A DNA stretch of 64,000 nt from positions 1 to 64,000 of the forward strand of contig JAHCKM010000001.1 in NCBI GenBank assembly GCA_026125795.1, written 5' to 3'. The position numbers and the translations under genes are program-made. Under the pieces are notes generated by a model. The model was not told where the DNA came from, searched no databases, and saw nothing but the letters and a program-made list of their open reading frames with translations. This document shows, piece by piece, positions 47,138 to 64,000 of the stretch. Each line of letters begins with the position of its first letter. The first letter of the stretch is position 1. This DNA comes from Burkholderiaceae bacterium (GTDB lineage Bacteria; Pseudomonadota; Gammaproteobacteria; Burkholderiales; Burkholderiaceae_C).

Positions 47138-49948
47138 ATGACCCAGGCCCGCGTCCTGCTGCTGACTGACGTGGTCGACAGCACCAAGCTGTCGGAGACC
47201 TTGGGCGATCAACGCATGGCCGATGTCTGGACGGCCCACGACCGCGTCGCGCGCGACCTGCTGCGCGGCTGGCACGGCCGGGAGATCGACAAGACCGACG
47301 GCATGCTGATGATGTTCGAGCGCGTGGACGATGCCGTCGGCTTCGCGCGCGACTACCACCACGCGCTGGCCGGCCTGCCGGTGGCGCTGCGTGCGCGTGC
47401 CGGCGTGCATGTCGGACCGGTGGTGCTGCGCGAGAACAGCGCGGCCGACATCGCGCTCGGTGCCAAGCCGCTCGAGGTCGATGGCATCGCCAAGCCGGCG
47501 ACCGCGCGCGTGATGGCTGTGGCCCGTGGCGGGCAGACCTTGCTCACGGCCGATGCGCGCCATGCGCTGGGCGACGACACCGTGCTCGAAGTCCGCTCGC
47601 ACGGCCACTGGGTGATGAAGGGCCTGGGCGAGCCGATCGAGTTGTTCGAGGTGGGCGATGCTGACACCGCCTTCGAGCCGCCCGTTGACGGAGACAAGGC
47701 CTATCGGGTGGTGCGCGTCGATGACGCCTGGCGGCCGGTGCAGCAGATCCCCAACAACCTGCCGCAGCAGGTCACGTCGTTCATCGGCCGCGAACGCGAA
47801 CTGCGCGAACTGCGCGAGCTGGTGTCCGGCGCACGGCTGGTCACGCTGCTCGGCATGGGCGGGCTGGGCAAGACGAGGCTGTCGTTGCGCGTGGCCGGTG
47901 ACGTGATGGCCCGCTTTCCCGACGGCGTCTGGTTCCTGGACTTCGCGCCGATCCGTGACCCGGCGCTGATCGCCGGCGAGGCAGCGCAAGTGTTGGGCAT
48001 CCGCGAGGAGCCGGGCCAGCCGGTGCTGCAGACCTTGTGCGCAGCGGTTCGCGAGCGCCGGCTGCTGTTGATCTTTGATAACTGCGAGCACGTGATCAAG
48101 GCATCGGCCGACCTGGCCAATGCCTTGCTCAAGGCCGGCCGGCAATTGCAGATTCTGGCGTCGAGCCGTGAGGTGCTTCGTGTGCCGGGCGAGCACGGCT
48201 ATCCGGTGATGCCGCTGCCGGTACCCGGCGCGCGTGCCGGCGTGCAGGCGCTGATGCAGTCGACGGCCGTGCGCCTGTTCGTCGAGCGCGCTCGCCTGCA
48301 CCGGCCGTCGTTCGTGCTGAGCGAAGCCGAGGCGCCCGCGGTGGCTGAACTGGTGGCCCGCCTGGAGGGCATTCCGCTGGCGCTCGAGCTCGCCGCGGCA
48401 CGCATGCGCTCGCTCGGCGTGGCGGACATCAACACCCGGTTGAAGGACCGCTACAAGATCCTCACCGGGGGTGGCCGTGTGCTGCTCGAGCGCCAGCAGA
48501 CGTTTCGGGCGCTGGTGGACTGGTCCTATGACCTGCTGACGCCGCAAGAGCAGACGACGCTGAACCGCCTGAGCGTGTTCGCCGGCGGGTTCGACCTCGC
48601 CGCGGCCGAGGCCGTGTGCGGCGCAGAGCCGCTGCTGGCCGAGGATGTGCTGGATCTGCTGTCGTCCCTGGTGGAGAAGTCGCTGGTGATGACGCGAGAC
48701 GTCGACGACGGCGTGCGCTACGTCATGCTGGAGACCATTCGCGACTATGCGCGCGAAAAGCTTGAGGCCGCCGGTGATGCCGGCGCGGCTGCGCAGCGGC
48801 ACTGCCACCACTACTTTGCGTTCGCGAAGTCCATCCGGGATGGCGTGGCCGGTCCGGAGCAAGCAAGCTGGATCCGTCGCGGCGAGATCGAGCACGACAA
48901 CCTGCGCGTGGCGCTCAGCCTGGCGCTCAGCGGCGCCACCGATCCGTTCATCGTCGTCAAGTTCTCGATCGCACTGATGACCTTCTGGATGTTGCGCGGC
49001 TACACGTCCGAGGGCCGAAGCATTCTGCGCGCCGCCCTGGCGATGCCGGCGATCCAGGAATCCGACGTGGCCCATGCGCATGCGCTCTACGTCGAGGCTG
49101 CCCTGGCCGGCAGCGAAAGCGACCATGCCGAGGCGCGCGCCAAGCTAGAGAAGTGCCTTGCACTCGAACGCACCTTCGCCGATCCGGTGGAGATCGCCGG
49201 AACCTTGTCGACCCTTGCGCTGGCGCGTCTGCAATCGGGCGATCCGCAACGGGCGACCGAAAGCGAAAGCGAGGCGTTGCAGCTCTTCGTTTCAGCGGGC
49301 GAGCGGCTCGGTGAGGCCATCTCGCTGCAGCATCTGGGACAGATCGCGGTGTATGTCGGCGACGAGGCGTTGGCGCAATCGCACCTGCAGAACTGCCTTG
49401 CGATCGCGCGCGAACTCGAAAACCGCGAGCTCGAAGGAGAGGCCGAACTGCTGCTGGGGCAATGCGCCTTTCTGGGCCGTCGTTTCGACGACGCACGGGA
49501 TCGTCTGCAACGTTCTTTGGCGATCTGCAGGGATGCGGGCGATCGGCGCGGCGAAGCCCGTGCGCTTTGGTGGCTGGGCCGGATCGACCTCGAAGTCGAC
49601 GACCTAGCTGCCGCGCGGCAGAAGCTGGGCACCGTGCTGCAGGTGTTCCACGACTTCGCGATGCACGAGGAGTGGGCGGACTGCGTGGAAGACCATGCGA
49701 TGGTCGCGCTGCGAGACGGGCTGTGGGCGGCAGCGGCCCACATGGCAAGCGCCGCGCAGCTGTACCGCCAGCGCCTGGAACTGGTGCTGGCACCGCACGG
49801 TCAGCGTCGTTGGGCCGCGCGGCAGGAGGCTCTGCGTGCCGCAATGCCACGGTCGGTGTTCGATCGGGCCTGGCAGGACGGACAGGCCGCTGCGCGCGAT
49901 GGCGTCATGCGCGCAGCGCTGGCGATTTCAATCGGAGAGCCGACCTGA
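47138..49948 (+). CDS. class III cyclase-like / STAND ATPase / TPR regulator
   Basis: 936 residues. Domain 1 (1-170) resembles a class III nucleotide cyclase: LLTDVVDSTKLSE with Asp11, and KTDGMLMMFE with Asp54 keep both metal Asp, but the catalytic Asn of the VNxAARL motif is Pro120 (GIAKPATARVM), so cyclase activity is doubtful. Domain 2 is NB-ARC/STAND: GMGGLGKTRLSLRVAG, RRLLLIFDNCEH (Walker B) and ASSREVLRVPGE. The C-terminal half is helical with TPR-like repeats (LGQIAVYVGDEALAQSHLQN). Such proteins are signalling regulators. It sits between prsR and the prsT-xrtA part of the locus. Confidence 0.9.
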   Translation: MTQARVLLLTDVVDSTKLSETLGDQRMADVWTAHDRVARDLLRGWHGREIDKTDGMLMMFERVDDAVGFARDYHHALAGLPVALRARAGVHVGPVVLRENSAADIALGAKPLEVDGIAKPATARVMAVARGGQTLLTADARHALGDDTVLEVRSHGHWVMKGLGEPIELFEVGDADTAFEPPVDGDKAYRVVRVDDAWRPVQQIPNNLPQQVTSFIGRERELRELRELVSGARLVTLLGMGGLGKTRLSLRVAGDVMARFPDGVWFLDFAPIRDPALIAGEAAQVLGIREEPGQPVLQTLCAAVRERRLLLIFDNCEHVIKASADLANALLKAGRQLQILASSREVLRVPGEHGYPVMPLPVPGARAGVQALMQSTAVRLFVERARLHRPSFVLSEAEAPAVAELVARLEGIPLALELAAARMRSLGVADINTRLKDRYKILTGGGRVLLERQQTFRALVDWSYDLLTPQEQTTLNRLSVFAGGFDLAAAEAVCGAEPLLAEDVLDLLSSLVEKSLVMTRDVDDGVRYVMLETIRDYAREKLEAAGDAGAAAQRHCHHYFAFAKSIRDGVAGPEQASWIRRGEIEHDNLRVALSLALSGATDPFIVVKFSIALMTFWMLRGYTSEGRSILRAALAMPAIQESDVAHAHALYVEAALAGSESDHAEARAKLEKCLALERTFADPVEIAGTLSTLALARLQSGDPQRATESESEALQLFVSAGERLGEAISLQHLGQIAVYVGDEALAQSHLQNCLAIARELENRELEGEAELLLGQCAFLGRRFDDARDRLQRSLAICRDAGDRRGEARALWWLGRIDLEVDDLAAARQKLGTVLQVFHDFAMHEEWADCVEDHAMVALRDGLWAAAAHMASAAQLYRQRLELVLAPHGQRRWAARQEALRAAMPRSVFDRAWQDGQAAARDGVMRAALAISIGEPT

Positions 49949-50697: not shown

Positions 50698-50977
50698 CCC
50701 GAATGACTGGCGTGCTGTGACGCAAGAATCGCGCGAGCCCGCGGCGAGATCCGCCTAACTCATTGATTGCGCGACTCTTTCAGGCATCGATGCGCCGACC
50801 CTTTGAAAGCGGGCGCGGCAGGAACGTCAAGTTCGCCGACACTTGCAGGCCGCCACAGAAGCCGCCTCGCTGGGTTGGTGGTGCGGAAAATGTCGCACCC
50901 TTTTCACGGGGTTCGACCAAAAGGTCTCGGGCATTCGAGGCAGCATCCGCGTGCTGCGCCATTGGGAGGTCCCTCAA

Positions 50978-53752
50978 ATGACTCTGTCTGCGGTGGTCGG
51001 ATCGCGACCCGCGCTCTGCCTCGTGCTGGCGATCGTGTTGAGCGCCTGCTCCAAGTCGCCGGAACAGTTGATGACTGCGGCGCAACGGCACATCGCCGAA
51101 AACAACCCCGCGGCCGCGCAGATCGAGCTGCGCAACGTGATCCAGGCGGCACCGAACCATGGCCTGGCCCATCGGCTTCTGGGCACGCTGCAGTTGAGTC
51201 AGGGGGATCCGGCGGCGGCCGAGGTCACATTGCGCAAAGCGCTGGCACTTGCCCAGAAGCCCGATGACGTGTTGCCCGCCCTCGCCGCGGCCATGCTGCG
51301 GCAGGGTCAGGCGCAAAAGGTGATCGACGAGTTCGGCAACACCACTCTGCAGGATGCGAAGTCCAACGCCGCGCTGCGCGCCAGCGTCGGCCAGGCCTGG
51401 TTGCTGCGCGCCGAGGTCAAGCCGGCGGCCGAAGCCTTCGCGGCTGCGCTGGCCGCTCAACCCGGACAGTCGATGGCGCTGCTGGGCCAGGCGCGCATTG
51501 CCGCGCACGAAGGCAAGCTCGACGACGCGATGGCGCTGACCGACAGCGCGCTGAAGAACGATCCGCTGCTGGCCGATGCCCACGTGTTCAAGAGCCAGCT
51601 GCTGACGGCCAGCGACCAACGCCCGGCTGCGGTGGAGTCCTTGGAGAAGGCGCTGGCCGTCGAGGCTGCGCACGTGCCCGCGCGCTTGGCGTTGGCTTCG
51701 ATGCTGATCGACGCCAAGGACCTGGACAAGGCCAAGACGGTTCTCGGTGCTGCGGGTCCGGCGTCGAAGGATCCGCGCTTGATGTTTCTTCAGGCCTTGC
51801 TGGCGTATCGGCAGAACGACCTGCCCAAGGCCAAGGACACGGTCGCCGCGGTCCTCAAAGCAGCGCCCGAGTACGGCCCGGCGCTCGTGCTGGCCGGTGA
51901 GGCCGAACTGCGCTCCGGCAACCACACGCTCGCCGAACAGCACCTGGGCAAAGCCATGAGGCTGCAGGCGACGCCTGGCGTCCGCCGCTTGTTGGCCGCG
52001 GCGCAGCTGCGCCAGGACCGCCCGGGCAAGGCACTCGAGACGCTGCAACCGCTGCTGCAGGAAGCCGGCAGCAAGGACAGCGCATTGGCCATGCTGGCCG
52101 GGGAGGCGTATCTGGCGCACGGCGACGTGCGGCGTGCCGGGGAGTACTTCGAGGCGGCCAAAACCGCGGGTGGGAACGAAGCCCTGGCGCGCACCCGTCT
52201 GGGCCAGCTGGCCCTGCGGCGCGGCGACCTTGACCGTGGCGAGCAGGAGCTCATAGCCGCCGCCGAACTGGGAGGAGCGAAAACCACCGAGCCGGATCTG
52301 TTGCTGGTGTCACTGCATCTGCGTCGGCAGGAGCCCGCCAAGGCGCTCGCAGCGGCACAGGCGTTCATCAAGAAGCAGCCGCAGAACCCGATCGGGCCCG
52401 TGCTGGCCGGGACCGCCCAAGCGATGCAGCGGGATCGGGTAGGCGCCCGGCAGAGCTTTGATGCCGCCCTGAAGCTCAAGCCCGACCACGTGCCCGCGCT
52501 GCGCGCGCTGGCCGATCTGGACGTGGTGGAGGGCAAGCCTGAGGATGCACACAAGCGCTATGACGCCTTGTTGGCCAAAAAGCCCGACGACGATCAGCTG
52601 CTGCTGGCGCTGGCCAGCCTGCAGGAGCGCACCGGTCGCACCGACGAAGCGGCCAATACGCTGACCAAAGCCATCGCGGCCAACCCGAAGGCGAGCGAAC
52701 CGGTCGTTGCCCTGGTGCAGCACCATCTGCGCCGCAAGAATGCCGCGGCGGCGCTGCAAGTGGCCCAAGACGCGGTCCGAAACAACCCCGACGAGCTGAA
52801 CCTGGCCATGCTGCTGGGCATGACGCAGGAGGCCGCCGGTGCCAGCAAGGATGCGCTGCGCACGTTGAGCGCGCTCGTGCTGAAGGAGCCGAATGCGTTG
52901 GCCCCGCTGCTTCGGCTGGCACAGATCCAGGCGAAGCAGCGCGACTTCGACGGTGCCGCAGCGACCCTGCAGCGCGCGCAGGAGAAGGCGCCGCAAAACG
53001 ATGCCGTTACGCGCGAGCTGGCGAACATGCTCGTCCAGGGCGGCAAGCCCGACCAGGCCATGAAGGTCGCCAGGGAGCTGCAGTCGCGGCGGCCCGAGTC
53101 GATTGCGGGTCACATACTGGAAGGCGACCTTCGGGCGCACGACAAGAAGTGGACGGAGGCAGAGCGTGGCTACCGAGCGGCGCTCAGGATCGACGCCAAC
53201 GCCACCGCCGCCGCCATCAAGATTTACGGCGCACTGCGCGCAGGGGGCAAGCAGAAGGAGGCCGAAGCCTTTGGTGCCGATTGGATTGCGCGGCACAAGA
53301 CCGACGTGCCCATGCGTGTGCTTCTGGCCGAGGCCTCGCTGCGCGCCCGGAGCTACCCTGCCGCGATCAAGCATTACGAGGACGCGCTCGCCATCAGCCC
53401 GAACCAGCCGATGGTGCTCAACAACCTGGCCTGGGCGCTCGGTCAGACCAACGACGCCAAGGCCATCAGTGTCGCCGAACGGGCGGCGGCGCTGGCACCC
53501 CAAAGTGCCGATGTGCTCGACACGCTGGGCATGCTGCACCTCAAGTCCGGCGATCCCAAGAAGGGCCTCGAGCTGCTCGAGCGCGTGCGCAAGTTGCAGC
53601 CCGAGCGCCTGGACCTGCGGCTTCACTATGCGAAGGGATTGCTGCGCAATGGCCGCACCGATGAAGGCAGGGCCGAGTTGCGCGAGCTGGCGGCGAACAA
53701 GGCCGATTTCGCCGGCAAAGCCGAGGTCGCTGCGTTGCTGGCCGCGCCCTAG
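50978..53752 (+). CDS. prsT: XrtA/PEP-CTERM system TPR lipoprotein PrsT
   Basis: 924 residues from ATG 50978 with GGGAGG ten bases upstream. A lipobox (VLAIVLSAC, then SKSPEQLM) predicts an acylated outer-membrane or periplasmic lipoprotein. The rest is about twenty TPR repeats, for example NNPAAAQIELRNVIQAAPNH and LDTLGMLHLKSGDPKKGLEL. Length and repeat content match PrsT, the TPR partner of PrsK/PrsR, thought to assist exopolysaccharide or PEP-CTERM protein assembly. xrtA follows after nine bases. Confidence 0.93.
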   Translation: MTLSAVVGSRPALCLVLAIVLSACSKSPEQLMTAAQRHIAENNPAAAQIELRNVIQAAPNHGLAHRLLGTLQLSQGDPAAAEVTLRKALALAQKPDDVLPALAAAMLRQGQAQKVIDEFGNTTLQDAKSNAALRASVGQAWLLRAEVKPAAEAFAAALAAQPGQSMALLGQARIAAHEGKLDDAMALTDSALKNDPLLADAHVFKSQLLTASDQRPAAVESLEKALAVEAAHVPARLALASMLIDAKDLDKAKTVLGAAGPASKDPRLMFLQALLAYRQNDLPKAKDTVAAVLKAAPEYGPALVLAGEAELRSGNHTLAEQHLGKAMRLQATPGVRRLLAAAQLRQDRPGKALETLQPLLQEAGSKDSALAMLAGEAYLAHGDVRRAGEYFEAAKTAGGNEALARTRLGQLALRRGDLDRGEQELIAAAELGGAKTTEPDLLLVSLHLRRQEPAKALAAAQAFIKKQPQNPIGPVLAGTAQAMQRDRVGARQSFDAALKLKPDHVPALRALADLDVVEGKPEDAHKRYDALLAKKPDDDQLLLALASLQERTGRTDEAANTLTKAIAANPKASEPVVALVQHHLRRKNAAAALQVAQDAVRNNPDELNLAMLLGMTQEAAGASKDALRTLSALVLKEPNALAPLLRLAQIQAKQRDFDGAAATLQRAQEKAPQNDAVTRELANMLVQGGKPDQAMKVARELQSRRPESIAGHILEGDLRAHDKKWTEAERGYRAALRIDANATAAAIKIYGALRAGGKQKEAEAFGADWIARHKTDVPMRVLLAEASLRARSYPAAIKHYEDALAISPNQPMVLNNLAWALGQTNDAKAISVAERAAALAPQSADVLDTLGMLHLKSGDPKKGLELLERVRKLQPERLDLRLHYAKGLLRNGRTDEGRAELRELAANKADFAGKAEVAALLAAP

Positions 53753-53761
53753 TCGATCGCC

Positions 53762-55351
53762 TTGCGCGCACTGCACCTCTCATTGGGACAACCTGAGCGC
53801 GCGATGGCCGCGATCGCGGCGATCGTTGGCGCCATCGCGCTGATCTTCTGGAGCACCAGTGCATCGATGGTCTCCGTGTGGAACGCCTCGGGCACCTACT
53901 CGCACGGCTACTTCATCGTGCCGGCTTTTCTCTGGCTCGTGTGGGGGCGCCGGCAGGTGCTGTCACGCCTGCCTATCGCACCCGCATGGTGGGCGCTGCT
54001 GCCGCTGGCCATCGTGGTTGGGGTGTGGCTCGTCGGGCAATGGATGGTGCTGGCGCAGCCGGCGCAGTTTGCGATGGTGACGATGGTGCCGCTGGCGATC
54101 GCCAGCGTGCTCGGCGTCGCATGGGTGCGTGCGCTGGCCTTTCCGCTTGCGTTTCTGTTCTTCGCAGTTCCGTTCGGCGAGTCGTGGGTGCCGGTGCTGA
54201 TGAACTGGACCGCCGACTTCACGGTGGCTGCGCTCAAGCTGTCAGGCGTGCCGGTCTATCGCGACGGGCTGCACTTCGAGATCCCGAACGGCAGGTGGTC
54301 GGTCGTCGATTCTTGCAGCGGCATCCGCTATCTCTTCGCATGCCTGTCGGTGTCGTCGCTGTATGCGTGGACGATCTACCGCGGTCGATTGCGTCGGCTG
54401 ACGTTCGTCGGTCTTGCGCTCTTGATCGCTATCGTGGCCAACTGGCTGCGTGCCTACATCATCGTGATGCTGGGTCACCTGAGCAACAACCAGATCGCCA
54501 CCGGCGCCGACCATCTCGTTTACGGCGCCCTGTTCTTCGGCGTCATCATGGCGTTGGTATTTGCGCTCGGAGCCTTGTGGCGCGAGGACCGGGCGCCGTC
54601 GCGCCCGGCGGCCATTTCATCGGTACGCCCGCTGCCCACCCCGCTCCTGGCCAGTACGCCGCAGCGCGTCATGGCGGCACTGGGGACTGCATTGGTCCTG
54701 TTGGCAGCACCCCTGCTGTCGAGCGGCGCGTCGCATGAACCACGTCGCCTGTCGATTGTGCCAAGTGACATCCGCTCCAGTGGCGGCTGGTTGCCGGTCG
54801 GCGAGCCCGTGGCGTCGTGGCAGCCGCGCCTGAACAATCCGGTGGCCCTGATTGCGCAGTCGTTCGAAAAGGACTCCCGCCGGGTCGGTGTACATCTGGG
54901 CTTGTTCGAGCGGCCGACGCTGGACTCCAAGCTGACGTCCGCCCGCAACCGCCTGCTCGAGCCGGACGGACTCAACCCGCAGTGGAAGCTGGCGGGGCAG
55001 GGCTTCGCTCAGGCGCGCTGGGCCGGTGACACCGTCGACGTACGCACAGGGGTGCTCATCGGCGGTGAGCGTCGCCTGCTGGCGTGGCATTGGTACTGGG
55101 TCGATGGCGTCGCCACGACGAGCCCAACGCGGGCCGCACTGCTGCAGATTCTGGCGCGGTTGCGGGGGCGTAGCGAAGTGTCCGCCTGGGTCAGCGCATA
55201 CACGGTTGTGGGCGACGAACCATCGGCCGCAACGCGGGCACTTGAAGAGTTCGTTGCCGACATGTCGACATCCATCGATCAGACGCTGGCGTCGGCATTG
55301 CCCGCAGCGCCCCGACAAGCCCTATCGGCAGAATCGACGACCCCGCGCTAA
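53762..55351 (+). CDS. xrtA: exosortase A with C-terminal EpsI domain
   Basis: 529 residues from TTG 53762 (ATG 53804 is an alternative). Eight or so helices carry the exosortase triad: VVDSCSGIRYLFACL with Cys185, NWLRAYIIVMLGH with Arg230, and TGADHLVYGALFFG with His251. From about residue 330 there is the soluble EpsI/DUF3485 domain (SSGGWLPVGEPVASWQPRL; GGERRLLAWHWYWVDG). Exosortase A cleaves and anchors PEP-CTERM proteins at the inner membrane, and EpsI domain fusions are typical of the XrtA branch. The two PEP-CTERM genes nearby are natural substrates. Confidence 0.95.
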   Translation: MRALHLSLGQPERAMAAIAAIVGAIALIFWSTSASMVSVWNASGTYSHGYFIVPAFLWLVWGRRQVLSRLPIAPAWWALLPLAIVVGVWLVGQWMVLAQPAQFAMVTMVPLAIASVLGVAWVRALAFPLAFLFFAVPFGESWVPVLMNWTADFTVAALKLSGVPVYRDGLHFEIPNGRWSVVDSCSGIRYLFACLSVSSLYAWTIYRGRLRRLTFVGLALLIAIVANWLRAYIIVMLGHLSNNQIATGADHLVYGALFFGVIMALVFALGALWREDRAPSRPAAISSVRPLPTPLLASTPQRVMAALGTALVLLAAPLLSSGASHEPRRLSIVPSDIRSSGGWLPVGEPVASWQPRLNNPVALIAQSFEKDSRRVGVHLGLFERPTLDSKLTSARNRLLEPDGLNPQWKLAGQGFAQARWAGDTVDVRTGVLIGGERRLLAWHWYWVDGVATTSPTRAALLQILARLRGRSEVSAWVSAYTVVGDEPSAATRALEEFVADMSTSIDQTLASALPAAPRQALSAESTTPR

Positions 55352-55610: not shown

Positions 55611-56432
55611 CTAAGCCCCGTGTCTGCGCCTGCGTCCCACCACGCCAAGGCCGGCCATCGCCACACCGAGCAATGCCAGCGTCGAAGGCTCCGGAACGTT
55701 GTTGCCAGGGTTCACTTCGCGCTCGAGCTTCGAGAGGATCGCCGATTGGAAGCCCGCGAAATCCTGGACGATGGACTGGAATGCACCGCTCCCACCGATG
55801 ACGTTGGTCGTGCCGTAGGTCAAGGCATTGATGGTGTCGCCTGGATCGTCACCGAAAAAGGTGCGATCGTCGATCCACAGAGCGTTGATGGAGGTCACAT
55901 CACCCGTCAGCGCGTTTGACCGCGCAGTCTGAAGCGGAACGCAGTTCATCTGGCTGAACGCACAGACATTGCCCTCGGAGCCATCGCCCGCCACGTCGAT
56001 CACTCGCCTCGTTCCCTCGTAGCCATTGGCGGCGAACAGGCCAGCAGAGTAGTTCAAGCCCTGCGTCAGTCCGGTACCACCAGCGAAGGGCCGGGGTGTC
56101 GAGAAGATCAGGTTGCCAAAGTTGTTCGCATCGGTCGCTGTATCGATGAGGGTCCAACCGATCGACTGTGCAACGCCGTCGGAGAAGTAGACCAGCGTCG
56201 CGGCGATCCTGCCCAACGCGCCCTGTTCAACGGCGGCCTGGAACGAAGCGCTTTGAAACGCGTCACGATAACCGGTTCGCATCAGATCGAAGTCGGCCGC
56301 GTCAACGCTTCCCGAGACGTCCGTCAGCAGAACCAGTTCGAGGTCAACTGCTGCCGCAGACGCGGGCGCTGAAAACACCGCTGTCGTCGCCAAGACTGTC
56401 GCGGCCAGCTTGTGCCTGAGCCTTTGCATCAT
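55611..56432 (-). CDS. PEP-CTERM protein with DUF1194 (VWA-like) domain
   Basis: 273 residues from ATG 56432 (GGAGGAG nine bases upstream; a leader to 56468 is unlikely). Signal peptide (HKLAATVLATTAVFSAPASA), then VDLELVLLTDVSGSVDAADF, the metal-ion-dependent adhesion-like motif D-x-S-x-S of VWA/DUF1194, and RRVIDVAGDGSEG. The C-terminus is VPEPSTLALLGVAMAGLG with VGRRRRHGA, a textbook PEP-CTERM signal. Four-metal-site VWA proteins often mediate surface adhesion. A sigma-54 promoter lies 91 bp upstream, so PrsR is the likely activator. Confidence 0.94.
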   Translation of the reverse strand: MMQRLRHKLAATVLATTAVFSAPASAAAVDLELVLLTDVSGSVDAADFDLMRTGYRDAFQSASFQAAVEQGALGRIAATLVYFSDGVAQSIGWTLIDTATDANNFGNLIFSTPRPFAGGTGLTQGLNYSAGLFAANGYEGTRRVIDVAGDGSEGNVCAFSQMNCVPLQTARSNALTGDVTSINALWIDDRTFFGDDPGDTINALTYGTTNVIGGSGAFQSIVQDFAGFQSAILSKLEREVNPGNNVPEPSTLALLGVAMAGLGVVGRRRRHGA

Positions 56433-56522
56433 TTGCGTCACTCCTCCGTAGGTTGTTCCCGTAACCATCTCGCGGATCCGAGCCTGTTGCCCACTCCCTC
56501 AGAACCACTTGGCGAACCAAAC

Positions 56523-56728: not shown

Positions 56729-57412
56729 ATGAAGGTGCTGCTGATCGACGACCACGAGATCGTGTGGAACGGTACGCGGCGCGTGCTGGCGGATCTGGCC
56801 GAGCAGCTCGGCTGGGGCGAGCGCTTCGGCTTCCACGCCGTGCGCGACGTGGCCGAGGCGTGCCGGCAACCGCGTGACGCGTTCGGGCTCGTTCTGCTCG
56901 ACTACCACCTGCCCGGCGTGTCGGGCGTGGAGGCGCTGCGCGCCGTCAAGGCGCACTTCGAGGCGACGCCGGTGTGCATGATGTCGGGCGAGGGCGAGTC
57001 GGCACGGGTGCGCGAGCTGATCGAGCTGGGTGCGGCCGGCTTCATTCCCAAGTCGTACAGCCTCGACGACATGAACGCCGCGCTGCGCGTGGTGCTGCAG
57101 CACCGGATCTTCCTGCCGGCGGAGTTCGTGCTGGCCGAGCAGACCACGCGCGAGCGGCTGCCCGATGAGCTCAAGCGCGAGGAGCTGGCCGCGTTCCTGC
57201 GCGCCGAGCTGTCGCCGCGGCAGCGGCAGGTGCTGGCGCTGGCCGTGCGCGGCACACCGATCAAGCTGATCGCGCGGCAGCTGTCGATCGCCGAGGGCAC
57301 GGTCAAGGTGCACCTGTCGATGGTCTATCGCGCACTGGGCGCGCGCAACCGCACCGACGCGCTGTGTCGCGTGTTCGAGGCGCAGGCGGCGACCGCGCTC
57401 GACGCGATGTAG
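56729..57412 (+). CDS. NarL/LuxR-type response regulator
   Basis: 227 residues. Receiver MKVLLIDDHEIVWNGTRRVL, phospho-Asp in VLLDYHLPGVSG, Lys in FIPKSYSLDDMNAAL; HTH LSPRQRQVLALAVRG followed by IKLIARQLSIAEGTVKVHLS. GGAG precedes ATG 56729. It converges with the giant fusion gene, and the hybrid kinase at 62803 on the other side of that gene is a plausible sensor partner. Confidence 0.93.
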   Translation: MKVLLIDDHEIVWNGTRRVLADLAEQLGWGERFGFHAVRDVAEACRQPRDAFGLVLLDYHLPGVSGVEALRAVKAHFEATPVCMMSGEGESARVRELIELGAAGFIPKSYSLDDMNAALRVVLQHRIFLPAEFVLAEQTTRERLPDELKREELAAFLRAELSPRQRQVLALAVRGTPIKLIARQLSIAEGTVKVHLSMVYRALGARNRTDALCRVFEAQAATALDAM

Positions 57413-57429: not shown

Positions 57430-60400
57430 CTAACGCAGCTCCATGCGGCAATCGGTCGTGGCGCCGCTCGAGGCGCGCAGGCTCACGTCGAGCCACGTGC
57501 TGCCATCGTCCCTGTGCTCGACGGCCACCACGGCGTGGCCCGGGTGCGCCGACATCGCGTGCAGCGTCACCGATCCGACAAGAGGGCGGCCCGGCCAACC
57601 CAGATCGATCCCACCTTGGAGCACCAGCTCATCGGGGCGCTGGTTCACGAACGGCCAAGGTGTGTACAGCCCCGACGACACGATCGACAGCACGCGATTC
57701 GTGCCGCCATCGAACCGAAGGCTACTTACGCTCGACAGGTGCGCGTCGCCCGAGAGAAACACCACGCGTCGGATGTCGTGGTCGCGAATGAAGGCGAGCA
57801 GCTCGACCGTCGATGCCGGATAGCCGCTCCAGGTGTCGGAGCGCAGGCGCTCGGCCGGGTGCGCGGCATCAAAGCGCTCGGGCGGCAGGAGCGGCGAGGG
57901 CGACACCACGAACTTCACCAACGCCGCCGCGGCCGGGTCGGCGAGCCGCGCGCGCAGCGCCTGCATCACGGTGGACGGCACGATCTGCGCCTCGCGGAGG
58001 TTCGCGGCGTCGCGCAGCGAGCGCCGGCTGCGAGTGTCGAGCACGATCAGCGGCACGCCGCCGGGGTAGCTCACGAAGCTGCCCCCGGTTGCCGGGTCAG
58101 CGACCAGCGATTTTCCCGGGTTCGCCAACCCCTGGTAGCGCTGAAACGCGGCGAGCGCGCGCACCACCTCGACGGGCGGCTGTTCGGTCTCGCCGTTCAG
58201 GCCCTTCCAGTCGTTGCGGATCTCGTGGTCGTCGAACATCGCCACCACGGGCAGGCGCGCCACAGTCTTGCGCATCGGCGGCAGTTGCCAGTTCAGTTCG
58301 TAGCTGCGGTCGATCGGCGCGTCGTGCACGTCGCTGAAGGTGCGCGCGGCGGCGATCGGGTCGAACGCGCCGGCCGTTTCGTCGAGATAGACCTGGTCGC
58401 CGCACAACACGAGCCACTGCGGCCCGTCGGCACTGGCGGCATCGGCATGCAGTCGCTCGTACGCGGCCTGCGCGGGCTGCTGATCGAACAGCCCCGGCGG
58501 GTACTGGCAGCTCGCCAGCGCGAACGACAATCGCTCGGTCGGCGCGCTCGCCTGGCCCCGGTCCATCGCGGCCTCCAGCCTGGGCGCCAGCGTGAAGACG
58601 CTGGCGGCTAGCGCGGTGGCTTCGCTCGGGTTGGCGCACCAACGCTCGAGCGCGGTCTCGATCGCGCCGCCGATCGGCTCGCCGTCGATCGACCAATCGA
58701 AGCGCCGTGGATCGATCCCGGGCTCGAGCTTGAGGTCGTCGTGCACCGTCAGCACCGCGAAGCGGCGATAGCGCTGCTCGAGCGCCGCCTGGGCGACGCG
58801 CAGGTTCAACAGCATGTGGTGCGCACCGGGCTGCGGCGGCCGCCAGGGCCACACGCGGGCGTGGTCGGCCAGCGGCACAAGCGCGCCTGCGCGCTCCTGC
58901 ATCGGCATCACCACCACCTGCCGCGTGCCGGCGCGGCGCGGTGCCGCGTGGATCAGCACCCGGGTGCGCCACCACCGCTTGCCCCCCTCGCCGATCTCGA
59001 GTTGCAGCCAGCCGAGCATCGGTCCGATCCACGGTGCCTCGAACTGTGGGTCGACGCCGGCTGCGCCGCGGTTCGGCAGCCGGTGCGCCTCGGCCAGGAA
59101 GGCGGTCACGAGCGGGAACACATCGGCGTGGGCCTGCGTGCCGATCATGCAGTCGAGGTGGCCGTAGCGTTCGAACACAGCGAGCTGCGTGCGCGTGCCG
59201 CGGCCGTAGAGCTCGCCGCCGGCGGCCAGCGGCTCGGGCGGCGCGGCGTGGTTGTCGCGGCGCAGTTGCGCGAGCAGCCGCCAGCTCGCCAGGCTCCCGC
59301 GCCAGTCGAACACGCGGTTGCGCCGGCCGTGCACGATCAGCGTGGGGAACGCGAAGCGGCGCGCGAAGTTGGCGTGGTGCAGCACGGTGTTGCGGCCGCT
59401 CGCGTCGGTGAGCATGTTGCGCCGCGCGAAGTGGATCGCCTGCGCCAGCATCGGCACGAACACCCAGCCGAGCACCGCCTGCAGCCGCAAGAGCACCGCG
59501 TCGCTCACGTTGGCCAGCTCGAACAGCTGGCCGAAGATGGCGTCGCCGCGGTGGCGCACGCGGCGAAAGTCAGAGTCCCGCAACGCCTTGCTCTGCTGGC
59601 GCCCGGCCTCGTCGTCGTCGTCGGGGTAGGGAAACGTGAACAGCAGCAGGTCGACGAGCAGTTGCAGCAACTTGCCACTGATGTCGTCGTCGGGCCGCCG
59701 GTCCCACTTCACGTCGCCGTTCTCGATGCGGCTGACGAAGTCGGGCGCGGTGTCGAGCATCTGAATGCCCAGGAACTGCTGCAGGTAGCTCGCCACGTAG
59801 CCGCGCAGGCGGTTCATCGGGCTGAAGCGCACCAACGGCCCCACCTGCGACAGCACCGCGGCGCCCACCTTGCCCTGCAGGTGCTCGCTGCCGAGCGAGG
59901 CCAGACAGAACATCACCGCACCCATGCAGTGCGCGAATACGTCGACCTGCGGCGCTCCGGTCTGGCGCAGCACCTCGTCGACGGCGGCCGGCAGATCGTC
60001 GCGGGCCACGCTGTCGACCGTCCAGCGGTGGGCAGCAATCGCCAAGCAGGGATCGCGGCGAGCGAACTCGTTGCCGGTGCTGCTGCGCACGTCGAGCACC
60101 CACACGTCGCGACCGGCTTCGCGCAGCGTGGTCGCGAGGCCGTGCGGCAATGAAGCGTCGATGGCGCTGGCGCCCGACGAGCCCAGGCCGTGAATGAGCA
60201 CCACCGGCAGCAGCCCCGGCGCCGCGGTCCCGGCGGGCGGGAAGCGCGTGAGCCGAGCGCCGTCGCACAGGCGCGTGACCTGGCCGTCGGGCGCGACCGG
60301 CCAGCGCTCCGCGAGCCCTTCCATGCTCGGCTGCAGCTGTTTGAACAGGTCGTGGTAGCCGAGCAGGCGCTTCAGCAGACGCCGCAACACATAGAACACG

Positions 60401-62775
60401 ACCGCGCCGGCGTCATCGAGCAGGTCGGGCATCGACGACAGGCGCACCGCGCGCAGCAGCGGGTCGCGCCGTTGGGCCAGGTCGGCCAGATCGAGCGCCC
60501 AGCGGCCGACGGCAGCGCCGTCGTAGCGCATCTGCATCTCGGAAAGCTGCCGCCACGGGCTGACATCGCAGCCTTCGGGCTCGCGCCCGATCACTTTCAC
60601 GCCGTCGAGCCGGCCGCCGACCGCGAGCGGACCCTCGCCTTGCACCGACTGCACGCTCAGCCGGTACACGAGGCGCGTACGCTCGTCGTCGGGCGGCGCA
60701 CCGGGCATCGGCGCGAACAGCTCCACGCTGCCGGCCAGCGTGGCTCGACACAACGGCTGCCGTGCGTCGGGGTCGTCGACGGTGAACTCGTCGTCGTGGG
60801 GCCGCGCGGCGTACAGCGCCAGATCGGCGCGCCGCACGGTCACCGCGCGCGAGGTCAGCGCCAGCGCGCGGCGAAAGCCCGGGATCTCCTCGAACTGAAT
60901 CTCCAGGCGCGCCCAGCAGGGGCGCCAGCCATCGATCGAGAAGCGCCCCTGCACGCGTTCGCGGATCGACCACACCACATCGCGTGCCGGCAGCTCGCGG
61001 CGACGGCCCTGCGGCCGCGGCGCAAGTGTGGCAACCGTCCCGGCCGACCGCCATTTCCAGTCCAGCAGCAACCGCGGCATCGCCCGCTCCGCCAATGCGG
61101 CGATCGTTAGCGCCGGGTTGATGCCGAGCGCGCGCGGCACGATCGAGCCGTCGAGCACGAACAGGCCGTCGTGCACGCCGCCGCCCTTCGGATCGAACAC
61201 GCGTCCGCAATGATCGACAACGCCGGCGTCGGGCCCATCGGCCATTCGGCACCCGCCGAGCGGGTGCACGGTGACCGGCGGCAGCACCAGCAGCAGCGGC
61301 AGGTCGGAGTCAGGCGGGCTCGGGTTGGGCACGGTGATCGCCGGCCGCTGCCGGTCGCGCAGCCACGTTCCGACCCGCTCGAACAGCGGGTGCAATCGCA
61401 GATCGAACCAATCGATCCGCACGCCCTCGCTACGGCTGCCATCGGCCGGCGGCGTGGGCAATGCGATCTTGCCCTTCGCGCCGTCGTCGCCCATCGAGCC
61501 GTACAGCGCGATACGGTCGATGTCGTGATCGGTCACCGCGTAGGGATCGGCCGCGCCGATGCAGTCCTCGCCCAGCGCGGCGAGCAGCGCCACGACCTCG
61601 CCGTACACGTGGCGCAAGCCGGCCGGCACGGCGAACTCTTCGAGCGCGAACGCGGCAGCCTCGTCGTCCTGAGGCACGCGGATCAGCCCGGTGATCGTGG
61701 GTCCGACGCGTCGCGCCTCGGGGTCGGCCGGGTCGCTTTCGGGGTCGCCGACCGCGCCCACGCGAAGGGCGTGCTTCGCGCCGGCGGTGATCTTGTCGCC
61801 GTTGGCGGAGAAGCGGCAGCCGACCCGGTCGGATAGTGCCAGACCTGCGGCCTTCGATCGCAGCAGGATCTCAGTCGAGCCCAGCGTGCCGGCGGCCAGC
61901 ACCACGCGGCGCGCGCGCACGACGAATTCGCTATCGTCGTTGTTCAGGCTGTGGTCGGTGTACTGCCACTTCACCGCCCAGCCACCTCGTTCGCCGCGCG
62001 CCACGGTACGCACCGTGCCGCCGCAGAACATCTCCACGCCGCGGGCGCGCGCGAAGGCGAGGTAGTTGGTGTCGAGCGAGCCCTTGGCGCCCTGGTTGCA
62101 GCCGGTCAGGCAATCGCCGCACAGCGTGCACGCGTGCATCGCCACGCCGGCGAAGTTGTATTCGTCGTGCCAGTGCACGGTCACGTCGCAGCGCCGCGCC
62201 TTCTCGAACGGGATCAACGTGTCGAGCACGTGCAGCTTGCTGCACTCCTGCTCCTGAGGCACTGGGCGCGGCGTGAGCATGTCGCGCACCTTCTCGCAGC
62301 CGTCGTCGAGCTCCCGGCGCGTGAGCGCCGCGGGCCAGCCGATGTCGAACACCGAGCCGGCCGGCTTCTCCATCACGCCGGCGTTGATCAGCGAGCCGCC
62401 TCCCAGGCCGTTGCCGAGCAGCACGCACACGTCTTTGCCCAGGCGGACATCGAACAGCCCCTCGGCGCGACCGAGCGCGGCGCGGCCGCTTTGTGTGTCG
62501 AAGCGCACGTGGCCGGCGAGCTCGGCAAAGCGCGACGGGAACCGGCCCGGCAGGTATTCGTTGCCGCGTTCGAGCACCCACACGCGCGCGGCCCGGAAGC
62601 TGCCGTCGACCTGCTGCGTTTCGTGGCCCGCGGCGCGCGCCGCGGCGACCGCGCCGCCGTAGCCGCTGCCCACAATCAACAGGTCGCAGTCGAATTGGTC
62701 CGTTGCGCTGTCGTGCAGCCGCGCGACCAGCTCGGGGGCCTGCCGCGACAACCAGGTTCTTCCCGTCGGAGTCAT
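57430..62775 (-). CDS. GMC oxidoreductase / alpha-beta hydrolase / PhoD-like phosphoesterase fusion
   Basis: 1781 residues from ATG 62775 (AAGGAGG eight bases upstream decides the start). (1) Residues about 30-570: GMC flavoprotein like cholesterol oxidases. LLIVGSGYGGAVAA binds FAD, CTLCGDCLTGCNQGAK has four Cys in C-x2-C-x2-C-x3-C, and VHPLGGCRMAD holds the active His. (2) A linker of about 260 residues. (3) About 855-1235: alpha/beta hydrolase (VVLIHGLGSSGASA; nucleophile elbow FAHCMGA with Cys in place of Ser; LIVHGRRNRVFD; RYGHLD). (4) About 1415-1780: PhoD-type metallophosphoesterase (LASCQYPPGLF, CGDQVYLD, MFDDHEIRNDW, SGDAHLSSVSS). No frame break is seen. Cytosolic; no signal peptide. 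Probable combined oxidation and ester/phosphoester hydrolysis of a lipid or sterol-like compound. Preceded by the hybrid kinase after 27 bp. Confidence 0.9.
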   Translation of the reverse strand: MTPTGRTWLSRQAPELVARLHDSATDQFDCDLLIVGSGYGGAVAAARAAGHETQQVDGSFRAARVWVLERGNEYLPGRFPSRFAELAGHVRFDTQSGRAALGRAEGLFDVRLGKDVCVLLGNGLGGGSLINAGVMEKPAGSVFDIGWPAALTRRELDDGCEKVRDMLTPRPVPQEQECSKLHVLDTLIPFEKARRCDVTVHWHDEYNFAGVAMHACTLCGDCLTGCNQGAKGSLDTNYLAFARARGVEMFCGGTVRTVARGERGGWAVKWQYTDHSLNNDDSEFVVRARRVVLAAGTLGSTEILLRSKAAGLALSDRVGCRFSANGDKITAGAKHALRVGAVGDPESDPADPEARRVGPTITGLIRVPQDDEAAAFALEEFAVPAGLRHVYGEVVALLAALGEDCIGAADPYAVTDHDIDRIALYGSMGDDGAKGKIALPTPPADGSRSEGVRIDWFDLRLHPLFERVGTWLRDRQRPAITVPNPSPPDSDLPLLLVLPPVTVHPLGGCRMADGPDAGVVDHCGRVFDPKGGGVHDGLFVLDGSIVPRALGINPALTIAALAERAMPRLLLDWKWRSAGTVATLAPRPQGRRRELPARDVVWSIRERVQGRFSIDGWRPCWARLEIQFEEIPGFRRALALTSRAVTVRRADLALYAARPHDDEFTVDDPDARQPLCRATLAGSVELFAPMPGAPPDDERTRLVYRLSVQSVQGEGPLAVGGRLDGVKVIGREPEGCDVSPWRQLSEMQMRYDGAAVGRWALDLADLAQRRDPLLRAVRLSSMPDLLDDAGAVVFYVLRRLLKRLLGYHDLFKQLQPSMEGLAERWPVAPDGQVTRLCDGARLTRFPPAGTAAPGLLPVVLIHGLGSSGASAIDASLPHGLATTLREAGRDVWVLDVRSSTGNEFARRDPCLAIAAHRWTVDSVARDDLPAAVDEVLRQTGAPQVDVFAHCMGAVMFCLASLGSEHLQGKVGAAVLSQVGPLVRFSPMNRLRGYVASYLQQFLGIQMLDTAPDFVSRIENGDVKWDRRPDDDISGKLLQLLVDLLLFTFPYPDDDDEAGRQQSKALRDSDFRRVRHRGDAIFGQLFELANVSDAVLLRLQAVLGWVFVPMLAQAIHFARRNMLTDASGRNTVLHHANFARRFAFPTLIVHGRRNRVFDWRGSLASWRLLAQLRRDNHAAPPEPLAAGGELYGRGTRTQLAVFERYGHLDCMIGTQAHADVFPLVTAFLAEAHRLPNRGAAGVDPQFEAPWIGPMLGWLQLEIGEGGKRWWRTRVLIHAAPRRAGTRQVVVMPMQERAGALVPLADHARVWPWRPPQPGAHHMLLNLRVAQAALEQRYRRFAVLTVHDDLKLEPGIDPRRFDWSIDGEPIGGAIETALERWCANPSEATALAASVFTLAPRLEAAMDRGQASAPTERLSFALASCQYPPGLFDQQPAQAAYERLHADAASADGPQWLVLCGDQVYLDETAGAFDPIAAARTFSDVHDAPIDRSYELNWQLPPMRKTVARLPVVAMFDDHEIRNDWKGLNGETEQPPVEVVRALAAFQRYQGLANPGKSLVADPATGGSFVSYPGGVPLIVLDTRSRRSLRDAANLREAQIVPSTVMQALRARLADPAAAALVKFVVSPSPLLPPERFDAAHPAERLRSDTWSGYPASTVELLAFIRDHDIRRVVFLSGDAHLSSVSSLRFDGGTNRVLSIVSSGLYTPWPFVNQRPDELVLQGGIDLGWPGRPLVGSVTLHAMSAHPGHAVVAVEHRDDGSTWLDVSLRASSGATTDCRMELR

Positions 62776-62802
62776 AAGACCTCCTTGCACCTCGTGGGAG
62801 GG

Positions 62803-64000
62803 CTAGCGCGTCGCGCCGGCCACGCTGGCGTTGCTGCCGGCTTCGCGCAGCGCGTCGTTGATCACTGCCGCCAGCATCGCGTCGGTCACCGGCTTGCGCA
62901 GCACGGCCACCGCGGCCTGCGCGGCCCGCTCGCGCAGCGTGCCCGTGGTGTCGGCCGACACGATGACCGCCGCCAGCGACGGCCGCGCGGCGCGCAGGCG
63001 CGCCACAGCCTGCAGTCCGTCGCAGCCGTCGGCCAAGCGGTAATCCACCAGCGCGACTTCGGGTTCGTGTTCCGACAGCGCCTGCAGCGCCTCGTCGAGC
63101 GAGGCGTTGCACACCACCTTGCAGCCCAGACTCGTCAGCGCGTTTGCGTAGGAGGCCCGCACCGCGGCATCGTCGTCGAGCACCAGCAGCCGCCGGGCGA
63201 TGAGGCCCGGATGCGCCGTCCGGTATCCCGGCACCACCGGCGCCGCATTGTCCGCGAGCGGCAGCCGCAGCACGAAGGTTGTGCCGCGGCCGGGCTCGGA
63301 GTGCATCTCGTGTTCGATGCCGAGCACCCGCGCGAGCCGGCGCACGATGCCCAACCCCAGCCCGTGGCCCGCGGTGCGGTCGCGCTGCGGGTTGCCGAGT
63401 TGTGCCAGGTCCTCGAACACGCGTTCGCGATCGTGCGCGTCGATGCCGATGCCGGTGTCGGCGACCGACACGACCACCTTGTCGCCATCGCGGCGCGCGA
63501 TCATTGCAATCGAGCCCGCCGGAGTGAACTTGATCGCGTTGTCAACGAGGTTGGCCAGAATCCGGCGCAGCATCTGCGCATCGCTTGTCACGGCCAGCGT
63601 GTCCGGCGTGCATTCGTGCGTGAGCGCCAGGCCCTTGGCCAACGCGGCGGGGCGAAAGCGCGCGCACACGCCATCCAGCAGGCTTGCCAGCGCCACGTTC
63701 TGCAGGTGCGGCGAGACCGCGCCGGCATCGAGCTGCGACACGTCGAGCAGCGCATCGAGCATCTGGCGCAGCGCTTCGATGCCCTCGCCGATGTCACCGG
63801 CGATCGCGCGGCTCTCGGCGTCGATCGGCCGGCGCGACAGCGCGCTGCTGTTGAGCAGCAGGCTTTGCAGCGGCTGGCGCAGGTCGTGGCTGGCCGAGGC
63901 CAGGAACCGGCTTTTCGACAGGTCGGTCTGCACCGCGGTGTCACGCGCCTGCGCCAGCTGTGCGCGCTCGGCCGACAGCTCGCGCAACAGCGTTTCGTTT
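62803..64000 (-). CDS. hybrid histidine kinase / receiver, 3' part only
   Basis: The frame is open to the right window edge, so the N-terminal sensor is missing; 398 residues are visible. A coiled lead-in is followed by the HisKA H-box SRFLASASHDLRQPLQSLLL, ATPase motifs NLVDNAIKFTPAG (N), SVADTGIGIDAHDRERVFED (G1) and GHGLGLGIVRRLARVLGIEH (G2), then a receiver: LLVLDDDAAVRASYANALTS, VALVDYRLADGCDG (phospho-Asp) and LRKPV. The SHDLRQPLQ box is of the type seen in NahK/ErcS-like and PAS-linked hybrid kinases. Upstream of the fusion gene on the same strand, 27 bp apart. Confidence 0.93.
   Translation of the reverse strand, partial: NETLLRELSAERAQLAQARDTAVQTDLSKSRFLASASHDLRQPLQSLLLNSSALSRRPIDAESRAIAGDIGEGIEALRQMLDALLDVSQLDAGAVSPHLQNVALASLLDGVCARFRPAALAKGLALTHECTPDTLAVTSDAQMLRRILANLVDNAIKFTPAGSIAMIARRDGDKVVVSVADTGIGIDAHDRERVFEDLAQLGNPQRDRTAGHGLGLGIVRRLARVLGIEHEMHSEPGRGTTFVLRLPLADNAAPVVPGYRTAHPGLIARRLLVLDDDAAVRASYANALTSLGCKVVCNASLDEALQALSEHEPEVALVDYRLADGCDGLQAVARLRAARPSLAAVIVSADTTGTLRERAAQAAVAVLRKPVTDAMLAAVINDALREAGSNASVAGATR

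Follow-up and report, generated by a model that had tools for sequence, protein, structure and literature searches.

We report a gene fusion in the 64,000-nucleotide stretch of DNA analysed here (the window: positions 1 to 64,000 of contig JAHCKM010000001.1, assembly GCA_026125795.1, from a Burkholderiaceae bacterium). At 57430..62775, on the minus strand, one open frame encodes a 1781-residue chain in which a GMC oxidoreductase, an alpha/beta hydrolase with a cysteine nucleophile and a PhoD-type metallophosphoesterase are joined. This architecture is recurrent yet sporadic, and the position of the fusion beside its own sensor and regulator genes suggests an undescribed regulated pathway acting on a greasy alcohol. 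Our preferred reading, to which we give about an even chance, is that the chain carries out three steps on a single lipophilic alcohol bearing phosphate and/or acyl groups, under the control of a membrane two-component system of its own. As far as titles and opening abstracts in the open-licence literature reveal, neither the architecture nor the gene group has been described.

Results

The fusion gene and its recurrence

The frame runs without interruption to its last codon, which is its only stop, and is also unbroken in the 6.57 Mb genome assembly. It would extend to 57430..62790 and 1786 aa if started at a GTG at 62790; the ATG at 62775 is preferable because AAGGAGGT, a Shine-Dalgarno sequence, lies directly upstream of it (62786-62779) and because the stop of the upstream gene is 27 bases away. 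The domains follow in the order GMC, alpha/beta hydrolase, PhoD, each above its Pfam cut-off (bits, with cut-off: GMC_oxred_N 48.0, 23; GMC_oxred_C 46.2, 24.6; Abhydrolase_1 48.2, 25.8; PhoD 75.6, 27). Structure models of the two halves have a mean predicted local distance difference test score of 87.9 (N half) and 88.5 (C half). At codon position 3 the GC content is 0.89-0.93 across the five domain segments; the 27 residues at the N terminus have a value of 0.815.

Fifteen further whole single-frame triples were found (L023, L025, L028, L029, L034, L043, L044, L086-L091, L106 and L107), with domains about 25-57% identical to those of the window. Contig ends cut two more (L024, L027), and the frame is interrupted in another three (L026, L042, L108). 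L043 and L044 are near-copies, both on complete Ensifer plasmids, and the L044 protein carries no annotation beyond 'alpha/beta fold hydrolase'. At L042 (8770-14758, Ensifer canadensis) the triple gene occupies two frames, for which decay and sequencing error are both possible. The relatives with a name that stand closest to the window's genome are Burkholderiales. Single-frame triples occur in 3 of 60 relatives, in at least 7 of 399 genomes of the order, at least 1 of 398 of the phylum and at least 3 of 369 of the class; these samples overlap and include the window's own genome, and the last three counts are lower bounds because no more than two candidates were scored in any genome. Among 72,556 plasmid records, 44 match the fusion; seven Ensifer records cover 79-82% of the query, of which two proved to be whole frames, L042 is interrupted and four were not fetched.

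A sequence-only reading of this DNA had described three domains in one uninterrupted frame with uniform codon use, and the Pfam search and the codon-position values bear out both statements. It had also stated that cholesterol-oxidase-like proteins joined to a hydrolase are known, as annotation confirms for GMC-hydrolase fusions without PhoD, and had thought the PhoD extension uncommon, which agrees with the count for the order; thousands of homologues with the same order did not appear in the collections searched. The beta-rich domain, the beta domain before PhoD and the linked kinase and regulator described below were absent from that reading.

The GMC domain and its four cysteines

The GMC domain (residues 28-575; 61051..62694, minus strand) carries a GxGxxG motif for flavin adenine dinucleotide (FAD) at residues 36-41, with G36, G38 and G40 conserved. 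The His/Asn pair is kept (H504 in 41/42 and N553 in 40/42 aligned sequences). In a Foldseek search the model of the N half matched cholesterol oxidase best (2gew, E 3.6e-27), followed by iron-sulfur GMC dehydrogenases. Within this domain lies a CxxCxxCxxxC motif, C216/C219/C222/C226 (62098..62130, minus strand), which is a probable iron-sulfur site as judged by conservation and pattern. Across the aligned GMC family the cysteines are present in 42/42, 41/42, 42/42 and 41/41 sequences, respectively, and the sole row without the complete set is the broken L042 frame. Searched against the PDB, a profile of the cysteine loop found ferredoxins (E 6e-5) and 4Fe-4S proteins as its best matches. The ferredoxin-type motif and its retention across the aligned GMC family make an iron-sulfur dehydrogenase likelier than an oxidase. 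In literature searches for iron-sulfur motifs in cholesterol-oxidase-like enzymes, the sole paper listed that bears on the point by title or opening abstract was one on a glucose dehydrogenase.

The hydrolase domain and the beta-rich region before it

Between the GMC and hydrolase domains lies a beta-rich domain (about residues 586-780) followed by a long helix (586-838 in all; 60262..61020, minus strand), with residues 601-761 forming eight strands in a confident model. Region 586-838 gave no Pfam family over cut-off for the window sequence and no PDB match below E 0.13. Against a viral fold library the N half matched GMC and other flavin enzymes at low E-values, and the beta domain matched nothing convincingly. 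Our guess would be a ligand-binding barrel.

The alpha/beta hydrolase domain (residues 839-1245; 59041..60261, minus strand) resembles acid lipases. Lysosomal acid and gastric lipases are its best profile matches, followed by polyhydroxyalkanoate (PHA) synthase, and the same lipases (6v7n, 1hlg) follow PhoD among the fold matches of the C half. The GxSxG serine nucleophile of the acid lipase family (LIPA, LIPF) is absent; its place is taken by a cysteine in 36/36 aligned sequences, the window included (Cys950; codon 59926..59928, minus strand, in an A-H-C-M-G elbow). His1206 is likewise present in 36/36. The position aligned to the acid Asp of the lipases holds Asn in 33/36 and Ser in 3/36, in a stretch that aligns weakly (3-7 bits). 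Since the nucleophile is Cys and not Ser, and Asn or Ser stands at this weakly aligned acid position, acyl transfer or thioester chemistry appears no less likely than simple hydrolysis of an ester. No match to a PhaC family was found in Pfam: none of the five families listed for 34 hydrolase members is PhaC.

The PhoD domain

The PhoD-type metallophosphoesterase domain (residues 1406-1781; 57433..58560, minus strand) is nearest to Bacillus PhoD (2yeq) both by fold and by sequence, with a Foldseek alignment of 613 columns. Conserved in it are D1460 (25/25), D1515-D1516-H1517-E1518 (25/25) and D1677 and H1679 (23/23), in the motifs GDxxY, DDHE and GDxH, which we take to be the metal-site residues of PhoD. 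The model places a beta domain before it (residues 1246-1405; 58561..59040, minus strand) that probably corresponds to the N-terminal domain of PhoD enzymes.

Relatives without the fusion

In L030, L092 and L096, PhoD is a gene of its own directly after a GMC-hydrolase gene; in G033, G034 and G305 these parts lie at the ends of contigs, so that the junction cannot be read. Another 15 GMC-hydrolase genes lack a PhoD domain (L035, L036, L045, L046, L047, L093, L094, L095, L097, L100 and L109-L113), and a metallophosphoesterase lies within two genes of nine of them. The neighbour is PhoD at L095 and L110 and calcineurin-like at L035, L045, L047, L093, L100, L112 and L113; at L045 its Pfam match is below cut-off (E 0.0014) and the PLSDB product name is metallophosphoesterase. 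L110, L112 and L113 entered the set only once the pattern had been noted, and their neighbours were assigned by BLAST to other loci. Because GMC-hydrolase genes without PhoD so often adjoin a metallophosphoesterase gene, the three look like one functional unit.

In L093 (3567-5723) and L100 (9200-11137) a gene for a RoxA-like cytochrome c, of the rubber-oxygenase type, lies directly downstream of the GMC-hydrolase gene and is followed by the calcineurin-like phosphoesterase; this cytochrome is a possible electron acceptor at those loci. At L046 (12461-14299, Leptospira borgpetersenii plasmid) the GMC-hydrolase gene lies about 3.5 kb from a gene annotated as sphingomyelin phosphodiesterase, with a cyclase-domain gene near.

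A tree of the GMC domains comprised 41 rows. L042 was dropped for its interrupted frame, L026 was counted as a triple despite its own, and the L045 row was mislabelled 'split, PhoD next door', its neighbour being calcineurin-like. The window falls in a starred clade of 17 rows (100/99), made up of 12 triples (L026 included) and five split forms. Nine GMC-hydrolase-only rows, three single GMC genes and L045 form a starred clade of 13 (99/100). The label 'triple' needs six changes on this tree, at least three of them forced by starred branches, so fusion or splitting of the trio happened on at least two occasions.

The linked kinase and regulator

The immediate neighbours of the fusion are a kinase gene and a regulator gene. 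The kinase, of the hybrid histidine type, is encoded directly upstream in the same orientation and comprises a membrane N-terminus and HisKA, HATPase_c and receiver domains (62803..64000, minus strand, the frame continuing to contig base 64686). Its stop is 27 bases ahead of the fusion's ATG, and because the gap is this short the two genes probably form one operon. On the other side, convergent and 17 bases from the fusion's stop, lies a LuxR/GerE-type response regulator of ErdR-like type (56729..57412, plus strand). The kinase scores 279 bits against NahK/ErcS NF041832, under the cut-off of 400, with only its 394-residue in-window part scored; the regulator scores 97.7 bits against ErdR NF041830, under 390.

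Outside Ensifer, upstream DNA is present for the 16 triples counted here. In every one the adjacent gene encodes a kinase resembling the window's (divergent in L088), and a regulator resembling the window's lies in the fetched stretch of 15. The 16 are the window, L023, L024, L025, L027, L028, L029, L034, L086-L091, L106 and L107, in all of which the frame is intact or truncated solely by the end of a contig; the last two were added when the pattern had already been noted. Left out were the interrupted L026, which has a kinase end upstream, and L108, which begins at a contig edge, as were the Ensifer triples L042-L044. Among the 15 GMC-hydrolase genes without PhoD, a kinase of this kind lies within one gene in three (L094, L112, L113), not counting a weakly similar kinase (24%) two genes away in L046. 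A search of 20 genomes with the window's kinase, scoring up to 63 candidates in each, gave the cassette kinase as the best match in 10 of the 13 other genomes that contain a PhoD cassette. Candidate membrane helices number four to six in 19 of 20 kinases, with one in L027, and no Pfam sensor domain was found in the six such kinases scanned.

Other lineages carry different neighbours. In Ensifer L043 and L044, and in L096 of genome G486, the adjoining protein is a guanylate-cyclase/AAA_16 protein of about 1370 residues instead; the L042 neighbour is shorter and matches that protein by BLAST, but has no Pfam family. At L040 and L103, where GMC and Cys-hydrolase are encoded by separate genes, the neighbour is a 7TMR-DISM hybrid kinase (1167-1183 residues, with an Hpt domain). 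A same-genus genome (G003) holds on contig C231 a second kinase-regulator pair, whose regulator is 69% identical to that of the window; the contig differs from that of the fusion.

Other genes in the window

Elsewhere in the window lies a PEP-CTERM sorting region, with an exosortase A that has an EpsI-type C-terminal domain (53762-55351, plus strand; 304 bits to XrtA, over cut-off) and an adjoining long protein that reads like a TPR protein (50843-53752, plus strand). There is also a DUF1194 protein with a C-terminal PEP-CTERM sorting signal (55611-56468, minus strand). The exosortase and the PEP-CTERM proteins had no match in the other compared loci. A 936-residue STAND/TPR protein (47138-49948, plus strand), whose N-terminus reads like a nucleotide cyclase and has no Pfam cyclase match, shares 38% identity across 394 residues with a protein encoded beside a Variovorax GMC-hydrolase gene.

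A phage origin for the fusion was rejected, the matches being just two, GMC-only and 60 query residues long, on contigs labelled Acinetobacter phage. A defence system was rejected as well: the fusion matches no PADLOC model, and the kinase has two weak matches (18-20 bits) through its ATPase and receiver parts.

Discussion

In the three-step reading that we prefer, the fusion would act in the cytoplasm, probably. Its PhoD domain would cut a phosphate ester, the acid-lipase-like domain would accept an acyl group on Cys950 and then release or transfer it, and the GMC domain would oxidise the freed alcohol, with FAD electrons leaving through an iron-sulfur cluster on C216/C219/C222/C226 and not straight to oxygen. 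The upstream membrane hybrid kinase may sense a hydrophobic substrate or product and would set expression of the operon through the neighbouring LuxR-type regulator. A lipophilic substrate is suggested by the two lipid-enzyme folds together with the membrane kinase. Taken together, the data support a single pathway in which three chemistries are combined under linked regulation, running in the direction of breakdown or of synthesis. Directly observed are the order of the domains, the conservation of catalytic residues, the arrangement of the genes and the recurrence; the sequence of steps, the substrate, the iron-sulfur cluster, the cellular location, co-transcription and sensing are predictions.

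Some proposals of the sequence-only reading are modified by these results. Its sterol-oxidase-like GMC domain agrees with cholesterol oxidase as the nearest fold, and the four-Cys motif is indeed present; it is conserved in the aligned GMC family, though, and so is not an addition peculiar to the fusion. Three complete catalytic domains had been claimed. The GMC and PhoD signatures are there, but the hydrolase has Cys for Ser and Asn at the weakly aligned acid position; an alpha/beta hydrolase by its Pfam score, it is a Cys enzyme that may be a transferase. The idea of a shared pathway gains strength from relatives that encode these functions in separate, adjacent genes.

Several observations weigh against the three-step reading. 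The substrate is deduced from folds and a membrane kinase, iron-sulfur and metal content stand as predictions, and the hydrolase chemistry may be lost or changed, given Ser to Cys and, on a weak alignment, Asp to Asn. The nine phosphoesterase neighbours lack a background rate, and no metallophosphoesterase was found near the other six of the 15 genes (L036, L046, L094 and L097, whose neighbours were scanned, and L109 and L111, seen by BLAST only). Nor are the compared loci independent: they are related, as the near-copies L043 and L044 illustrate. On the tree, L086-L088 and L090-L092 (L092 being split) fall outside the window's starred clade and the clade of 13 alike, with their placement unresolved. 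As for regulation, L106 is the exception to the regulator pattern, and in three genomes of the 13 (G132, G209, G376) a different kinase matches the window's better. Nor does the two-component link hold everywhere: no kinase or regulator of this type lies near any of the three Ensifer triples (L042-L044) or near L096.

Other explanations account for parts of the same evidence. That the fusion arose as an assembly or annotation artefact, or from unrelated genes joined by chance, has a negligible probability: several relatives are metagenome-assembled genomes and three have interrupted frames, but separate assemblies contain 15 other whole single frames, including two on complete Ensifer plasmids, and codon-position GC is even over the domains. 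We therefore reject an assembly fusion, recurrence having excluded it for the architecture. Unlikely, though plausible, is that the Cys domain is a PhaC-like acyltransferase and that the chain builds a lipid or polymer instead of degrading one. The invariant cysteine, as in the PHA synthase PhaC, and the PHA synthases among the profile and fold matches speak for it; acid lipases nevertheless score better in both searches, and PhaC is missing from the Pfam families of the members. A sterol or steroid-ester breakdown enzyme, in which cholesteryl-ester-hydrolase-like and cholesterol-oxidase-like domains act on sterol esters or phosphates, seems to us very unlikely. The closest folds are indeed cholesterol oxidase and lysosomal acid lipase/cholesteryl ester hydrolase, yet the Cys nucleophile does not fit, and the GMC domain reaches 146.1 bits against the NCBIfam cholesterol oxidase equivalog NF058674, under the cut-off of 850. 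A hopene cyclase search at E 1e-20 was negative in all 16 carrier genomes, which bears on self-made sterols or hopanoids and not on sterols from outside; a sterol substrate as suggested earlier, or a hopanoid one, is unsupported in that self-made form.

It is also unlikely, if worth keeping in mind, that the fusion makes or destroys a lipophilic signal read by the kinase, or is the kinase's ligand-binding partner. The Pseudomonas alcohol dehydrogenase YiaY/ErcA is co-cistronic with a hybrid kinase that it is proposed to stimulate, according to PMC12997753, and whose ligand-binding partner it has been suggested to be; this offers a precedent. The adjoining kinase and regulator genes fit this explanation, as do kinases with membrane helices and, in the six scanned, no Pfam sensor domain; so does the pairing of the enzymes in other clades with a guanylate-cyclase/AAA_16 protein (L043, L044, L096) or a 7TMR-DISM kinase (L040, L103). 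Plain two-component regulation, however, accounts for the same layout, and no chemistry ties product to signal. In a fuller form, which we regard as quite unlikely, the cassette would be a communication or lipid-sensing module: the chain would make or erase a lipophilic keto-signal from a phosphorylated acyl alcohol, by Cys acyl transfer and iron-sulfur flavin oxidation, and the kinase and LuxR-type regulator would read it. Were this true, other lineages would keep the enzymes and swap both the reader (guanylate-cyclase/AAA_16 protein, 7TMR-DISM kinase) and the phosphoesterase (PhoD, calcineurin-like).

Taken singly, each domain is of a familiar kind. The trio, however, is conserved, has been fused or split repeatedly and is paired with a sensor system, which points to one unknown pathway in many Proteobacteria that annotation obscures with labels like 'alpha/beta fold hydrolase'. 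Two claims about enzyme mechanism can be put to the test: that an acid-lipase-like enzyme works with Cys, and that cholesterol-oxidase-like flavoproteins have a ferredoxin-type site.

Comparison with known systems

The kinase and regulator recall the ErcS/NahK kinases and ErdR regulators of alcohol oxidation, with which they share the kinase core, the regulator type and an enzyme gene adjoining a hybrid kinase gene; they differ in falling below the NCBIfam cut-offs and in the membrane N-terminus of the window's kinase. Among oxidoreductases, cholesterol oxidase (2gew, 1coy) has the same fold and the same FAD, His and Asn motifs as the GMC domain, but is not fused, and the aligned Streptomyces enzyme is without the ferredoxin-type Cys motif. 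The FAD glucose dehydrogenase of Burkholderia cepacia (6a2u) and fructose dehydrogenase (8jej) also have a GMC fold like that of the fusion. In the glucose dehydrogenase PMC6719666 gives C212, C218 and C222 as 3Fe-4S ligands, and C216-x5-C222-x3-C226 of the fusion has the same spacing, a match by spacing and numbering and not by residue-level structural alignment. Compared with these three cluster cysteines, the fusion has an additional Cys219 and thus a ferredoxin-like pattern. Genes for the gamma and cytochrome c subunits of these dehydrogenases were not seen adjoining the window's gene, no profile search having been aimed at them.

The hydrolase domain has the fold and the conserved His-x-Asp loop of lysosomal acid and gastric lipase, from which it departs by the Cys in place of the Ser nucleophile and by the Asn at the aligned acid position. 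Bacillus PhoD (2yeq) shares the fold and conserved metal-site residues of the PhoD domain, which in the fusion, unlike in that enzyme, is the C-terminal part of a larger chain. GMC-alpha/beta-hydrolase proteins of about 1150 aa (Azospirillum oryzae WP_149201188.1, Leptospira borgpetersenii WP_002741297.1) have the same first domains, the Cys motif and the Cys nucleophile; these two-domain proteins, annotated 'alpha/beta fold hydrolase', differ from the fusion in having no PhoD in the chain. WP_205239617.1 of Ensifer sp. PDNC004, also annotated 'alpha/beta fold hydrolase', has the same three-domain order in a single frame; it is about 30-41% identical to the window's protein by domain, and it has a guanylate-cyclase/AAA_16 neighbour and no kinase or regulator like the window's nearby.

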